A stretch of 64,000 nucleotides of DNA from Galbibacter marinus (GTDB taxonomy: Bacteria > Bacteroidota > Bacteroidia > Flavobacteriales > Flavobacteriaceae). The notes beneath the pieces are model-generated. The model had not been told where the DNA came from. It saw only the letters and a list, made by a program, of their open reading frames with translations, and did not search any database. The position numbers and the translations under genes were made by a program. This document shows, piece after piece, positions 58,782-64,000 of the stretch. Position 1 is the first letter of the stretch; every line of letters begins with the position of its first letter. The stretch lies in NCBI RefSeq assembly GCF_000300875.1, contig NZ_AMSG01000001.1, positions 124,001-188,000 on the forward strand, written 5' to 3'.

Positions 58782-59810
58782 CTATTTGAATTTTAAAACT
58801 TCTGAACGTCCTTTTTTGAAAATCATATTACTTTTAGTTTGACCTCTTCGAAGTGCTTTTTGCTCCTCATATGGTAAGGCCGCAATTTCTGCACATTTCT
58901 CTGAACAACAACCACTTAGCTTCTCAGCACATTCAGGACACTGTATAAATAGTAAATGACATGCTTCATTAGCACAATTCACATGCGTATCACACGGCTT
59001 ACCGCACTGGTGACAATGCGCGATAACATCCTCTGAAATCCTCTCAGCGCGTCGCTGGTCAAAAACAAAGTTCTTTCCAATAAATTTATTTTCTAGGTTC
59101 TTTTCTTCAACTTGACGCACATAATTGATAATGCCACCTTCGAGTTGAAAGACATTTTTAAAACCTTTGTGTTTATAATAAGCACTGGCTTTTTCACATC
59201 GTATTCCACCAGTACAATACATCACCAAGTTTTTATCTTCCTTATGCGTCTTTAAGTCCTCTTCTATTATAGATAAGGAATCTCTAAAAGTGTCAACATC
59301 TGGAGTGACAGCATTTTTAAAATGACCTATTTCACTTTCATAGTGATTTCTCATATCGACAAGTACCGTATTAGGATCTTCGATCAGGGTATTGAATCGC
59401 TCCGCATCCACGTGTACGCCTTTATTAGTAACATCAAAGGTATCGTCGTTTAAACCATCTGCTAAAATCTTATCCCTTACTTTTACTTTAAGTTTGAGAA
59501 AAGAAAAATTATCCTGTTCTATGGCAATGTTCAATCGTACGTCTTCCAAAAAACTAATAGAATCCAAGTGATCTTTAAATTTCTGGAAATGATCAGCCGG
59601 AACTGATAATTGTGCATTAATCCCTTCGTGGGCTACATAAATACGGCCTAGGACGTCCAATTCATTCCAAGCGACAAAGAGATGATTTCTAAAAATTTCT
59701 GGATTACCGATTTTTGCATATGTATAGAAAGAGATGGTAAGGCGTTCCTTTCCAGCTTGCTCAATAAGCTTTGCTCTTTCCTCTGCGCTAAGATTATTGT
59801 ACAGTTGCAT
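58782..59810 (-). CDS. trhO: tRNA uridine-34 hydroxylase (rhodanese family)
   Basis: TrhO uses O2 to make 5-hydroxyuridine at tRNA position 34. The 342 residues have an N-terminal acylphosphatase-like domain (about 20-115), a rhodanese domain with the active Cys in MYCTGGIRCEKASAYY and a C-terminal Cys-rich zinc part (HCHQCGKPCDTHVNC, then CPECAEKLSGCCSEKC), all as in E. coli YceA-type long forms. Confidence 0.92.
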   Translation of the reverse strand: MQLYNNLSAEERAKLIEQAGKERLTISFYTYAKIGNPEIFRNHLFVAWNELDVLGRIYVAHEGINAQLSVPADHFQKFKDHLDSISFLEDVRLNIAIEQDNFSFLKLKVKVRDKILADGLNDDTFDVTNKGVHVDAERFNTLIEDPNTVLVDMRNHYESEIGHFKNAVTPDVDTFRDSLSIIEEDLKTHKEDKNLVMYCTGGIRCEKASAYYKHKGFKNVFQLEGGIINYVRQVEEKNLENKFIGKNFVFDQRRAERISEDVIAHCHQCGKPCDTHVNCANEACHLLFIQCPECAEKLSGCCSEKCAEIAALPYEEQKALRRGQTKSNMIFKKGRSEVLKFK

Positions 59811-59849
59811 GCTATACTAATATTTTTAGGTTAAAGAAATAAATTTTTG

Positions 59850-59857
59850 CAAAAATA
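59850..59857 (-). promoter_or_regulatory. -7 element of trhO
   Basis: Minus-strand TATTTTTG fits TAnnTTTG and ends 39 bases before the trhO start. The remaining part of the 381-base gap 59811-60191 carries the recA promoter; the middle shows no gene or hairpin I can support. Confidence 0.45.
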
Positions 59858-60130
59858 CACATTTTTAAACAATCCTTCTCTCCAGACTAAGTATTGATTT
59901 GCGAAGTAAAAAGAACCCCGGCCAGTCTCTGAATCTTTTTTAGTAATTGAATTCACCTTAAGCACCATTATTACAGTAAAAAAAGATGAATCCAATGGCT
60001 CGCATTGTTGTCCTAAAGGGTCAAGGAATCGAATTTTGAGAAAGGCACCTAGCTCTGCCTTAAAGAATTATAAAAACTTCCTTTCTTTGACCAAAAGATA
60101 AAAATTGTTAATAAAGGTTACTTAATTGCA

Positions 60131-60161
60131 TTGTGTGCTGTCAAAAGAAATAGTATTTTAG
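60131..60161 (+). promoter_or_regulatory. promoter of recA
   Basis: TTG (60131-60133) and TATTTTAG (60154-60161, one mismatch to TAnnTTTG) are 20 bases apart. The leader would be about 24 bases. I see no LexA-type palindrome. Confidence 0.4.
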
Positions 60162-60191
60162 CAGCTATCAAATTTTAAGATTTAAGAGAAA

Positions 60192-61199
60192 ATGAGTTCG
60201 GAAAAAGATGCAAAGTTAAAAGCACTCAAACTTACCCTTGATAAGTTAGATAAGACTTATGGTAAGGGCGCAGTTATGAAAATGGGTGACAGTGTTGTTG
60301 AAGATGTTGAGGTAATCCCTACTGGTTCTATCGGTTTGGATATTGCATTAGGTGTAGGAGGTTATCCCCGCGGAAGGGTTATTGAAATATATGGTCCTGA
60401 ATCATCCGGTAAAACTACCCTTACCCTGCATGCCATTGCAGAGGCACAAAAAGCAGGTGGAATCGCAGCGTTTATTGATGCAGAGCATGCCTTTGATAGG
60501 TTTTATGCAGAAAAACTAGGTGTTGATATAGACAACCTAATTATTTCACAACCAGATCACGGGGAGCAAGCATTAGAAATCGCCGATAACTTAATTCGTT
60601 CAGGAGCCATCGATATTGTCATTATTGACTCAGTTGCAGCATTAACTCCAAAGAGTGAAATTGAGGGAGAAATGGGTGATTCTAAAATGGGATTACACGC
60701 AAGGTTAATGTCGCAGGCTTTACGAAAGTTAACATCTAGTATTAGTAAAACAAAATCCACTGTGATTTTCATCAACCAGTTACGTGAAAAGATTGGGGTG
60801 ATGTTCGGGAACCCTGAAACCACCACTGGAGGTAATGCTTTAAAATTCTATGCCTCTGTTAGATTGGATATTAGACGATCTACTCAAATTAAAGGTAATG
60901 ACGGTGAGGCTTCTGGTAATAAAACCAGAGTTAAAGTGGTGAAAAACAAAGTAGCTCCTCCATTTAAAACCACTGAGTTCGATATTATGTATGGTGCTGG
61001 AATCTCTCGTATTGGGGAAATTCTCGACTTAGGAGTTGAATATGAAATTATCAAAAAAAGTGGATCTTGGTTTAGTTATGGAGACACCAAACTTGGCCAA
61101 GGACGTGATGCAGTGAAAGTTATACTTCAAGACAACCCAGAGCTTTTAGAAGAACTGGAAGTCAAGATAAAAGACGCAATAAACACAATCAGTAACTAA
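60192..61199 (+). CDS. recA: recombinase RecA
   Basis: RecA forms filaments on single-stranded DNA for repair and recombination. The 335 residues have the P-loop [26 protein letters not shown] and the L2 DNA-binding loop [22 protein letters not shown]. The C-terminal acidic tail is short. A strong terminator follows. Confidence 0.98.
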
Positions 61200-61222: not shown

Positions 61223-61251
61223 AAATCCCAGAGCAATCTGGGATTTTTTTT
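61223..61251 (+). terminator. terminator of recA
   Basis: A 10-bp perfect stem (61223-61232 with 61237-61246) with a GCAA tetraloop and a run of T follows the recA stop by 23 bases. Confidence 0.9.
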
Positions 61252-61310
61252 ATCCCATGCGCAACCCTCATCTTAAAATCGCATCTTAAGTGTATAACTT
61301 AATAAAGCAG

Positions 61311-61796
61311 ATGATGAAGATTTTTAATTCAATCCTATTATTGGTAACACTCGTAGTGGCAAGCTCTTGCGATGTAGATGATGACAATACTAATTTCCAT
61401 TACGAAACTCTTGAAATTACAGATGCGAAATTACCTGAAGCATTTGAATACGGTAAATTATATACCGTTGAATTTAATTACTTAAGACCTACCAACTGTC
61501 ACTATTATGAAGGTTTTGATTTTCAAAAAACCGATAAGACAGAGCGTACTATTTATGCCATTGGTGCTGTTTTAGATCAGACTGATTGTCAAGAGCTCAC
61601 TGAGGACAATATTGGTACTGCAACTTTTAACTTTGAGGTACGTTATAACGATCCCTATACCTTTAAATTTTATTCAGGTGATAACGAAGATGGAGAAAAG
61701 CAGTATATTACCATCGAAGTTCCAGTAGCTCAAGATTCTACTAGAACATCTGGGATCAAACAAGCTAACATTATTAAATCAAGCCAGTATAATTAG
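61311..61796 (+). CDS. lipoprotein of unknown function, upstream of an ECF sigma factor
   Basis: The 161-residue product has a lipoprotein signal (LLLVTLVVASSC, Cys20) followed by DVDDDN. An acidic run right after the Cys resembles the surface-export signal described for Bacteroidetes lipoproteins. The mature part is beta-rich with two Cys (TNCHYY, TDCQE). The stop overlaps the start of the sigma gene by one base, so the two are cotranscribed. No family recognised. Confidence 0.75.
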   Translation: MMKIFNSILLLVTLVVASSCDVDDDNTNFHYETLEITDAKLPEAFEYGKLYTVEFNYLRPTNCHYYEGFDFQKTDKTERTIYAIGAVLDQTDCQELTEDNIGTATFNFEVRYNDPYTFKFYSGDNEDGEKQYITIEVPVAQDSTRTSGIKQANIIKSSQYN

Positions 61797-62338
61797 TGAG
61801 TTTAGAACAACTCATAGAACAATGTAAGGCACAGGATAGAAAGGCACAAGAAAAATTATACAAGCTATTTAGTAACAAACTTTATAGCATTTGCCTTAAA
61901 TATTCTCGTAATGCTACCGAGGCAGAAGACAATCTGCACGATAGTTTCATGACCATTTTTGAAAAAATTAATGGCTATAGTTACAAAGGATCCTTCGAGG
62001 GATGGATCAAAAGAATTACCGTAAATACGGTTCTTCAAAAATATCGCAAACAAGGAACTTTTGACAGCCTTCCATACAATCTGGAAGAAGACATCAATGT
62101 TTCAACAGAACAGCAAGAAGAATATAGTCTGGATTATCTATTAGGTATCATACAGAGTTTACCTGATAGATACAGACTGACTTTTAACCTCTATGTCCTA
62201 GATGGGTATTCCCATAAAGAAATTGCGACCATGCTGGATATATCAGAGGGAACATCGAAATCGAATTTAGCTAGGGCAAAAATGGCCCTAAGAAATAAAA
62301 TTGAAGGAAGGGATAACAACAGGGTTCAAACTATTTAG
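61796..62338 (+). CDS. ECF-type RNA polymerase sigma factor
   Basis: The 180 residues have sigma region 2 (about 20-85: FSNKLYSICLKYSRNATEAEDNLHD, with the -10 contacts) and region 4 (about 120-170: LPDRYRLTFNLYVLDGYSHKEIATMLDISEGTSKSNL). The start is a GTG that overlaps the TAG of the lipoprotein gene. Its partner is likely the next gene, whose N-terminus looks like an anti-sigma domain. Confidence 0.93.
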   Translation: MSLEQLIEQCKAQDRKAQEKLYKLFSNKLYSICLKYSRNATEAEDNLHDSFMTIFEKINGYSYKGSFEGWIKRITVNTVLQKYRKQGTFDSLPYNLEEDINVSTEQQEEYSLDYLLGIIQSLPDRYRLTFNLYVLDGYSHKEIATMLDISEGTSKSNLARAKMALRNKIEGRDNNRVQTI

Positions 62339-62361
62339 TCACCCGCTATGTATGTAGTAAA

Positions 62362-63846
62362 ATGGACGAAAGAAAAAACATAGAACGCTTTTTTCAGGAA
62401 AAGTTTAAAAACTTTGAGGCTGATTCACCAGAGCACATCTGGGGTAAGATCGATCAGTCCCTGAGCAAAAAAGGCACTAACAGAAAAGTGATTCCACTTT
62501 GGTGGAAAATTGCAGGAGCTGCCGCACTATTAGCTGGTGTTTTGTGGACTGGAAACTTATTCCTTAATCCAGAGATCCCCAGTGGCATTCAAAGCGTCAC
62601 AGAAACTAACACCAAAGATAGTACCTCCACCGGCCAGTCACAAGAATCTGTGGTTGCTAATGATCAGGATAACCAAACCCCTTCAACAACTAAAGATCAA
62701 GATACCAATAGAAGCCTAAGACCAGCAGAAGAAATCCATCCAACCCAAGAGTCAACAAGCCTGCAAGGTGTTGCTCAGACCAAATCAGATAATGATGACA
62801 CTTATAACTCATCATTAGGAAAAAAACAGCAGAACAAGGATCAAATCGCCACAGACCAAGCTTTAGCACAAGGGGAACAGAAGACAAATCAAAATCCTGA
62901 TAAAAAAGACATAAAAGATCCAAGCACAGGTCAGCGACCAAAAGAATTAAATAACATTTCAGAGGATAGTAGTTGGGCACAAGTCGATGAGTCCGCTAAG
63001 GAAAAAGAAGAAGACAACTTAGACAAACCATCTATATTAGAGGCCATTAAGGAGATGGAGAAATCCAAGCAAGACGCCTTAGCTTCTAACGAAAACAACA
63101 AACGCGATCTTCGCTGGTCAGTTCAACCTAATGTGGCTCCAGTATATTACAATTCCTTAAGTGAAGGTTCTCCACTGAGTCAGCAGTTTGCAGAGAATTC
63201 TAAACAGGGAGATGTCACCATTAGCTTTGGGGTAAATATCGCCTATCAAATAAGTAAAAGGCTCAGCATTCGTTCTGGTCTTAACTCTGTTGATATGGGT
63301 TATGCCACAGACGGCATTGAGTTTGGACCTGCCATAAGTAGCACCAAAGGACACCAGCTCAATGTAAGATTCAACAATGCCCCTGCAGGTGCACCCCAAC
63401 AACCTAACATCGCTCTCTCTGATGGGAAGTCCCCATTATACAATGAAGATAGTGAATTACAAGCGAGGTCTGAGAATACTCACCAAGGAAGTATCAATCA
63501 AAAATTTGGATATTTAGAAATCCCTTTAGAATTAAAATACCGATTGGTTGACACCAAAGTCGGGGTAAATATAATTGGAGGATTTAGCTCCTTATTTTTA
63601 ACGGACAATAAAGTAATCATCAGCAGTAATAACAATTTAAAATCCGAAGTTGGTGAGGCTAGTAACTTAAACGACACTAGTTTCAGTACCAATATTGGAA
63701 TTGGATTGGACTACCAATTCTCCGAGAAATTACTTTTCAACTTAGAACCCATGTTTAAGTATCAAATGGGAACCTTTTCTTCAGATGATGGTGGATTTTC
63801 ACCCTATATGTTAGGAGTGTATACTGGACTCAGCTTTAGCTTCTAA
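62362..63846 (+). CDS. single-chain protein with anti-sigma-like N-terminus, one membrane helix and C-terminal outer-membrane barrel
   Basis: The 494 residues read in three parts. Residues 1-45 are cytoplasmic in style (ERFFQEKFKNFEADSPEHIW), a form common in Bacteroidetes anti-sigma-like proteins. A membrane helix follows at about 46-68 (LWWKIAGAAALLAGVLW). Residues 70-248 are a polar, Gln/Asn/Asp/Lys-rich linker with no hydrophobic run. Residues about 250-494 form amphipathic strands (DVTISFGVNIAYQISKRLSI, LEIPLELKYRLVD, YMLGVYTGLSFSF) of an OmpA/PorT-like barrel ending in Phe, the usual barrel-insertion end. It follows the sigma gene by 23 bases. The joint topology is inferred. Confidence 0.8.
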   Translation: MDERKNIERFFQEKFKNFEADSPEHIWGKIDQSLSKKGTNRKVIPLWWKIAGAAALLAGVLWTGNLFLNPEIPSGIQSVTETNTKDSTSTGQSQESVVANDQDNQTPSTTKDQDTNRSLRPAEEIHPTQESTSLQGVAQTKSDNDDTYNSSLGKKQQNKDQIATDQALAQGEQKTNQNPDKKDIKDPSTGQRPKELNNISEDSSWAQVDESAKEKEEDNLDKPSILEAIKEMEKSKQDALASNENNKRDLRWSVQPNVAPVYYNSLSEGSPLSQQFAENSKQGDVTISFGVNIAYQISKRLSIRSGLNSVDMGYATDGIEFGPAISSTKGHQLNVRFNNAPAGAPQQPNIALSDGKSPLYNEDSELQARSENTHQGSINQKFGYLEIPLELKYRLVDTKVGVNIIGGFSSLFLTDNKVIISSNNNLKSEVGEASNLNDTSFSTNIGIGLDYQFSEKLLFNLEPMFKYQMGTFSSDDGGFSPYMLGVYTGLSFSF

Positions 63847-63852
63847 GCAAAA

Positions 63853-64000
63853 TCATTTACTATTGCGCTTTTGAAGCGCAGATAATATAAGTGATCTTGT
63901 GCTTTGTTTAAGTGTCTCTGAGTGTTTTACATCCATATTCTGAGTTTTAATAAAGGGCATTACGACCGCTCTCATTCTTCCTGGTGATCCACTAAAAAAC
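63853..64000 (-). CDS. C-terminal end of an unidentified protein (runs off the window)
   Basis: The minus-strand frame is open from the right edge to a TGA at 63853-63855, 48 codons, ending SLILSALQKRNSK. It starts six bases after the barrel gene stop and converges with it. The fragment (RMRAVVMPFIKTQNMDV) is not enough to name a family. Confidence 0.5.
   Translation of the reverse strand, partial: FFSGSPGRMRAVVMPFIKTQNMDVKHSETLKQSTRSLILSALQKRNSK

Follow-up and report, generated by a model that had tools for sequence, protein, structure and literature searches.

The locus considered here lies behind recA in Galbibacter marinus, in a window of 64,000 nucleotides (the whole stretch that was analysed; contig NZ_AMSG01000001.1, positions 124,001 to 188,000), where an operon at 61311-63846 encodes a lipoprotein, then an extracytoplasmic function (ECF) sigma factor, then a protein of 494 residues, all on the plus strand. 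It raises the question of whether one polypeptide can stand in both membranes and hold a sigma factor at its cytoplasmic end. To judge from its sequence, the single chain probably does reach from the outer membrane to the cell interior, restraining the sigma factor there, and by a domain-by-domain match with published descriptions it is a protein of the Dma/Reo type. The single-chain principle is already published for Bacteroides and Phocaeicola; what is new here is a promoter code that predicts which surface proteins the sigma factor controls. The favoured reading, a probable one, takes the operon for a cell-envelope stress switch of the Dma/Reo type: the sigma factor would be held by the N-terminal module, freed when the barrel is disturbed, and would then drive its own operon and a lipoprotein regulon. 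The protein and its predicted parts are placed as follows.

62362..63846, plus strand: Dma-type protein, 494 amino acids
62362..62487, plus strand: residues 1-42, anti-sigma-like module, predicted cytoplasmic; the same module occurs in 14 short proteins adjoining ECF genes
62497..62562, plus strand: residues 46-67, predicted inner-membrane helix, from hydropathy and alignment, with a K/R-rich N side read from the sequence
62566..63105, plus strand: residues 69-248, polar linker, taken as disordered
63106..63843, plus strand: residues 249-494, predicted outer-membrane barrel (PF13568), eight strands as drawn, C-terminal Phe

The most hydrophobic 19-residue window within the first 130 residues is 43-61 (mean 1.76), and since many lysines and arginines stand just ahead of the helix, the N-terminus should be inside. 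At the other end, the Pfam family OMP_b-brl_2 (PF13568) matches residues 248-461 at 1.2e-10, over its cut-off, and the barrel assignment is drawn from this match and the alignment. Eight strands were drawn by hand, aided by a poor AlphaFold model with a predicted local distance difference test (pLDDT) score of 33; as drawn, the strands and three short turns are of constant length in 48 homologous sequences, while the loops vary, loop L2 by far the most. The alternation of hydropathy is strong in S2, S6, S7 and S8 and weak in S1, S3, S4 and S5, and the strand pattern fits an eight-stranded barrel with both ends periplasmic. A short helix at 225-240, ahead of the barrel, is possible from the low-confidence model alone. 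In a profile search of the PDB with the protein, at expect values (E) up to 1, the linker drew matches of low complexity and the barrel none. The sequence-only reading of this stretch had described the three-gene order after recA, with the sigma start overlapping the lipoprotein stop, and a last protein with an anti-sigma-like N-terminus, one helix, a linker of about 180 residues and a barrel ending in Phe; the former is borne out by coordinates and Pfam, the latter by Pfam, hydropathy and 64 homologues.

Those homologues came from a search of 99 genomes, the window's own included, in which 57 hold a match to the Dma-type protein. The 64 loci fetched (the window's, L002-L004 and 60 regions) cover 54 of the 57 matching genomes, leave out the three weakest matches (G060, G087 and G095) and some second copies, and include 8 second copies plus 2 genomes possibly counted already. 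A sigma gene lies directly upstream on the same strand in all 64, and all 64 proteins share the order of module, helix, linker and C-terminal domain; the last residue is Phe in 60 and Leu in 4. The most hydrophobic window follows the module in every one, starting at residue 42-54 with a mean hydropathy of 1.49-2.59, the helix being called from hydropathy. With matches in 57 of 99 genomes and a common domain order in 64 homologues, the arrangement is not due to chance. In 48 homologues compared pairwise, the linker has a mean identity of 0.14, against 0.53 in the module, 0.47 in the helix and 0.46 in the barrel. By protein search, Dma occurs once in the window genome; a candidate second copy seen at L040/L042 has a PF13568 match and was rejected, since to the eye it is a secreted barrel whose end is OmpA-like and which lacks the anti-sigma module.

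The type extends across the phylum. A profile of 27 diverse members, 20 of which match PF13568, was run against 296 genomes of the phylum and matched 87 of them. A sigma gene stands upstream in 28 of the 29 loci added by this search, two of which repeat genomes already counted; in the 29th, L252, both matches fall inside one short frame. Another 20 matches were fetched, chosen mostly for their N-terminal match, and 19 adjoin a sigma gene, the one without, L276, being a low-complexity match. Five of the 19 are of the full-length type (414-452 residues) and come from outside the class, and 14 (L258-L271) are short proteins of 225-281 residues next to ECF genes, called barrel-less from their length and profile match; the C-terminal end of the L271 protein presumably resembles a secreted-protein C-terminal domain. 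Since short and full-length proteins carry it alike, the N-terminal module appears to be a portable unit of anti-sigma type, with the barrel one of several things to which it can be joined.

Between helix and barrel the linker is near-random in sequence, yet never shorter than 103 residues in the 64 homologues (103-294, with ends taken from the alignment and disorder read from composition). The linkers of 48 homologues are 76% polar and hold 4 Trp in 8443 residues. If each residue adds 0.36 nm and the persistence length is taken as 0.4 nm, the 180 residues of the window protein have a computed contour of 65 nm and across 20-30 nm would pull with about 6-11 pN. Even the shortest linker, of 103 residues, extends to 37 nm by the same calculation, so spanning is possible for every member measured. 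A standing pull on the tether is therefore plausible, as arithmetic rather than evidence.

The closest published relatives are Dma1 and Dma2 of Bacteroides thetaiotaomicron, with Das1 and Das2, which are alike in domain order and in the adjacent ECF sigma factor. Available extracts of their account describe Dma as an anti-sigma domain, a helix, a disordered tether and a C-terminal barrel beside an ECF21 sigma factor, report that loss of Dma2 induces the dma2 operon, and term the mechanism elusive and the sensed substrate unknown (PMC13088901). In the window the ECF sigma factor likewise adjoins dma, and no ECF21 model is among the library matches for it. The dma2 operon differs in its third gene, BT_1557, which encodes a DUF4943 protein and lies on the dma2 side by its tag (extracts of PMC13088901); compared with Dma1 and Dma2, the linkage to recA, the ACGCAACC promoter and the lipoprotein regulon come from the present analysis. 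In Phocaeicola vulgatus, extracts of a second study give an anti-sigma factor predicted to span the periplasm and end in a barrel, with its sigma gene up 33-fold after the toxin BcpT (PMC9308784), and those of a third name this anti-sigma factor Reo, say that it spans five compartments from cytoplasm to surface, and place NigD surface lipoproteins in the EcfO regulon, one of which (nigD, 03762) has the tag beside that of the sigma gene, 03761 (PMC13114119). The anti-sigma gene is tagged 03760, and the neighbouring tags suggest the same lipoprotein, sigma, anti-sigma order in P. vulgatus. The EcfO-Reo pair of P. vulgatus and Bacteroides fragilis, as far as those extracts go, is thus alike in its spanning anti-sigma factor, suggested gene order and surface lipoproteins in the regulon, and different in that Pfam gives no NigD match for the window lipoprotein or for 27 relatives.

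The sequence-only reading had anti-sigma factor and receptor as separate proteins in the known ECF systems of Bacteroidetes, which is wrong, as Dma and Reo are single chains; its single line from outer membrane to sigma factor is well supported as a design by the comparison with the Dma family, and its novelty falls, since Dma and Reo are published. Systems of the FecR or polysaccharide utilization locus type do have an ECF sigma factor, a membrane anti-sigma factor and an outer-membrane input, with receptor and anti-sigma factor separate. A FecR and TonB-receptor reading of the window operon was rejected, because the 494-residue protein has no FecR match in Pfam at E up to 1 and the operon holds no TonB-dependent receptor gene. 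The sigma-E of Escherichia coli, with RseA and DegS, is an envelope-stress ECF response in which the outer-membrane signal is relayed by separate proteases, whereas in the window system one chain may carry it.

Which genes the sigma factor would serve may be predicted from the promoter of its own operon, which is set among its neighbours as follows.

61259..61287, plus strand: ECF-type promoter GCGCAACC-N15-CATCTT, with one mismatch to the family consensus ACGCAACC-N15-YATCTW, 23 nucleotides ahead of the lipoprotein ATG
61311..61796, plus strand: lipoprotein, 161 amino acids, lipobox Cys20 then acidic residues, predicted beta-sandwich, conserved Cys63 and Cys93
61796..62338, plus strand: ECF sigma factor, 180 amino acids, GTG start, from Pfam
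60192..61199, plus strand: recA, conserved upstream neighbour (context), upstream in 48 of the 64 fetched dma loci
61225..61251, plus strand: hairpin and T run, likely intrinsic terminator of recA, read from the sequence and absent from the list of the automatic terminator scan
63853..64000, minus strand, continuing beyond the window end: convergent gene (context), which we take to be a plsC-like acyltransferase

With a likely terminator after recA, the operon starts anew. The lipoprotein runs from ATG 61311 to the stop codon 61794-61796, with which the sigma GTG at 61796 shares one base, and the sigma stop ends at 62338; a GTG at 61290, listed by the open reading frame caller, is not a likely start because it abuts the promoter. 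Both sigma regions are matched in Pfam (Sigma70_r2, region 2, at 3.4e-11; Sigma70_r4_2, region 4, at 9e-16), and a homologue of the plsC-like gene lies downstream on the opposite strand in 46 of the 48 recA-linked loci.

When scanned by script with a somewhat relaxed pattern, 45 of the 48 recA-linked loci, and 3 of the 16 others, show ACGCAACC-N15-YATCTW upstream of the operon; the spacer is exactly 15 in all 48 sites, and 0.15 matches would be expected from shuffled copies of the 64 stretches. As to the three recA-linked misses, the site lies farther upstream in L054 and begins at the scan edge in L082, and L085 has none in its stretch. The eight second-copy loci (L095-L102) show no promoter site in the stretches scanned, as expected if they belong to other sigma factors. 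Across 60 genomes the exact pattern gave 103 sites against 6 for its reversed control; 32 of the 36 genomes with Dma hold at least one such site and none of the 24 without Dma does (Fisher, 5.7e-13). Inside the family the figures are 31 of 33 with Dma and 0 of 4 without (p 2e-4), and with the 46 sites at the dma loci removed they are still 23 of 36 and 0 of 24 (p 1e-7). From this we infer that the sigma factor reads ACGCAACC-N15-YATCTW promoters. Extracts of a study of F. psychrophilum give one ECF motif with a CGT box and allow for further ECF promoters (PMC9723704). Some sites look false, namely those within the coding 3' end of what is presumably clpB (L192, and L225 in the window genome) and L226 and L227 of the window genome, where the next genes are transporter-like and an unassigned protein rather than lipoproteins.

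All 57 sites away from the dma loci were fetched and their genes scored by a fixed lipobox rule, by which a lipoprotein gene starting 8-45 nucleotides past the site follows at 33 of the 57, versus 2 of 55 window genes; 7 more lead to lipoproteins by eye, for 40 in all. Six sites (L170, L173, L180, L204, L213 and L221) are followed by genes for mini proteins, 28-36 residues long and with a single hydrophobic stretch, those of L170 and L173 having a lipobox-like Cys, and six others lead to proteins with Sec-type signals by eye. In two genomes (L169 and L174) the site stands 65 nucleotides ahead of a gene that we take, from its motif, to be dTDP-4-dehydrorhamnose-reductase-like, which brings to mind the P. 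vulgatus regulon, for which O-antigen lengthening is reported. Three sites, the first of L185, L192 and L205, fit nothing. The regulon lipoproteins belong to many unrelated families, and most have acidic residues right behind the Cys, a surface-export signal in this group. In the window genome the one-mismatch site at C1:321504 (L224) leads to a lipoprotein that is lipocalin-like by eye. By this predicted regulon, the main output would be small surface lipoproteins.

The promoter data make the operon lipoprotein, too, look like output at least as much as input. Between recA and the sigma gene, 40 of the 48 recA-linked loci carry a gene of its family; none was found in the other 8, where sigma and dma are in place, so the lipoprotein is not needed everywhere, and the part of signal input that had been suggested for it is hypothetical. 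None of the 28 members examined, the window's included, matches NigD in Pfam (E up to 1); Foldseek gave no match at E 0.001, and a PDB profile search gave chance matches only. A structural neighbour search (VIA) returned the NigD-like 3qwn at Z 5.7 (root-mean-square deviation 3.7, 96 aligned), which is below 8 and tied with unrelated rows; the AlphaFold model of Dma was kept out of all fold searches. As a side observation, four of the top eight structural neighbours, 3qwn included, are proteins of Bacteroidales, and every row of that search has a Z below 8.

A second, looser copy of the site lies just upstream of recA and faces away from it in 32 of the 48 recA-linked loci (e.g., L050:6192 onward, plus strand), L005 and L081 having been only partly scanned. 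A short predicted transcript follows, and in 20 of the 32 it holds a peptide frame of 27-41 residues (27-30 from an ATG or GTG start) ending in GG after D or E, as in ..CKADGG and ..NGKLDGG. In 14 peptides of 30 residues, changes fall mostly on the third codon position (1205 versus 795 and 662), but those that alter the residue outnumber the silent ones (1198 to 490), and the frame is likely, not proven, to be coding. Two of the 21 stretches that were cut, L043 and L047, turned out to be wrong and were left aside, and nearly all of the 19 usable sequences, folded singly, show by eye a hairpin across the peptide stop codon; the terminator hairpin has both-sided changes in 8 of 12 pairs. RNAalifold recovers the terminator hairpin only, because the alignment misplaces the other. 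The gene beyond the transcript varies between loci. Rfam gave four matches in six loci, all far under the gathering scores (that of Atu_C9 in L061, E 0.52, lies on the opposite strand and overlaps the transcript end), and NCBIfam gave none for five peptides. The transcript was not found in the window genome, where no site is seen by eye in 59780-60260 and a search with one hairpin arm gave 2 matches versus 2 in the control. For the promoter, lipoprotein regulon and small transcript in Flavobacteriaceae, no account was found in literature searched by topic words rather than by motif, a coverage that takes in few subscription papers.

With gene order, architecture, conservation pattern, promoter, promoter-Dma link and lipoprotein enrichment established, the stress switch may be set out in steps. 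Residues 1-42 of the 494-residue protein would hold the ECF sigma factor in the cytoplasm, and the chain would pass the inner membrane once, cross the periplasm as a disordered tether and end in the outer membrane as a barrel. A disturbance of that membrane or of barrel assembly would leave the barrel end lost, unassembled or moved, and the N-terminal hold would be released, by proteolysis or by pull. The freed sigma factor would transcribe ACGCAACC-N15-YATCTW promoters: that of its own lipoprotein-sigma-dma operon, giving a positive loop together with fresh inhibitor, and those of the rest of the regulon, mostly small surface-type lipoproteins. The envelope-stress signal is carried over by analogy from P. 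vulgatus, where BcpT induces a pair of this type.

Several observations weigh against this switch and the promoter code it relies on. The genomes compared are related, so the Fisher values overstate independence, and one scored as Dma-less (G063) has short matches to the Dma profile. The window genome itself has no exact site, its own operon copy having one mismatch; allowing one mismatch gives 8 sites versus 4 for the reversed control, barely above it, and of the 8 two look convincing, at the own operon and at one lipoprotein gene. No such promoter is seen in the class-level loci L250, L251, L253, L254 and L255. The lipoprotein test tried every start within 160 nucleotides of a site, and in a wider background 51 of 431 genes in the window and dma loci are lipoproteins by the same rule, many being the operon lipoprotein itself, which was not separated. 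Lastly, the structure prediction that the sequence-only reading had proposed for the barrel speaks neither for nor against it, as the AlphaFold model of the 494-residue protein (4-row alignment, mean pLDDT 33) is unusable and confirms nothing.

Against the same evidence other readings have to be set. The protein might be a ligand-triggered surface receptor, binding through its outer loops either some molecule or a partner lipoprotein while the tether relays the event across an intact membrane, as the glycan sensing proposed by the Dma2 authors would have it (extracts of PMC13088901). Outer loops L1 (263-283) and L4 (470-481) reach 2.4-2.5 bits, against 2.8-3.4 for the strands, which is unusual for exposed loops (loop L3 is intermediate, at 1.95, and L2 variable, at 1.2), and the lipoprotein is co-encoded in 40 of the 48 loci; but loop conservation could serve folding, sigma and dma stand without the lipoprotein in the remaining eight, and the P. 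vulgatus data, in the extracts available, indicate general envelope stress (PMC9308784). A receptor of this kind is accordingly rather unlikely.

Less probable still is a protein that is cut in the periplasm as a rule, leaving an anti-sigma stub and a free barrel with no continuous line between them. A polar linker of 180 residues is an easy protease target, and the short same-module proteins beside ECF genes (14 of 20 fetched) indicate that the module may work without a barrel, but barrel and module share one chain in all 64 homologues, in a survey not aimed at split pairs, and a linker never below 103 residues is more than a mere joint needs. That the protein has no anti-sigma function, being an ordinary barrel of the OmpA kind whose signal anchor stays uncleaved and which has a sigma gene beside it by chance, is hardly credible; PF13568 by itself is common, matching at six other places of the window genome, but the module is as conserved as the barrel and recurs in short proteins beside ECF genes, and the sigma gene adjoins in 64 of 64 loci.

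The stress switch remains the preferred reading, and a bolder version of it can be offered tentatively, as possible though somewhat doubtful: that the recA-linked pair of Flavobacteriaceae is a phylum-specific counterpart of sigma-E, in which a tether at several pN replaces the protease relay and the regulon consists of unrelated surface lipoproteins, mini membrane proteins and, in many relatives, a conserved 27-30-residue peptide whose structured transcript faces away from recA. With the promoter code, candidate targets can be listed at once for many relatives, which makes the tether idea directly testable, and a lipoprotein output fits the NigD lipoproteins of the gut species and may help to explain what NigD is for.

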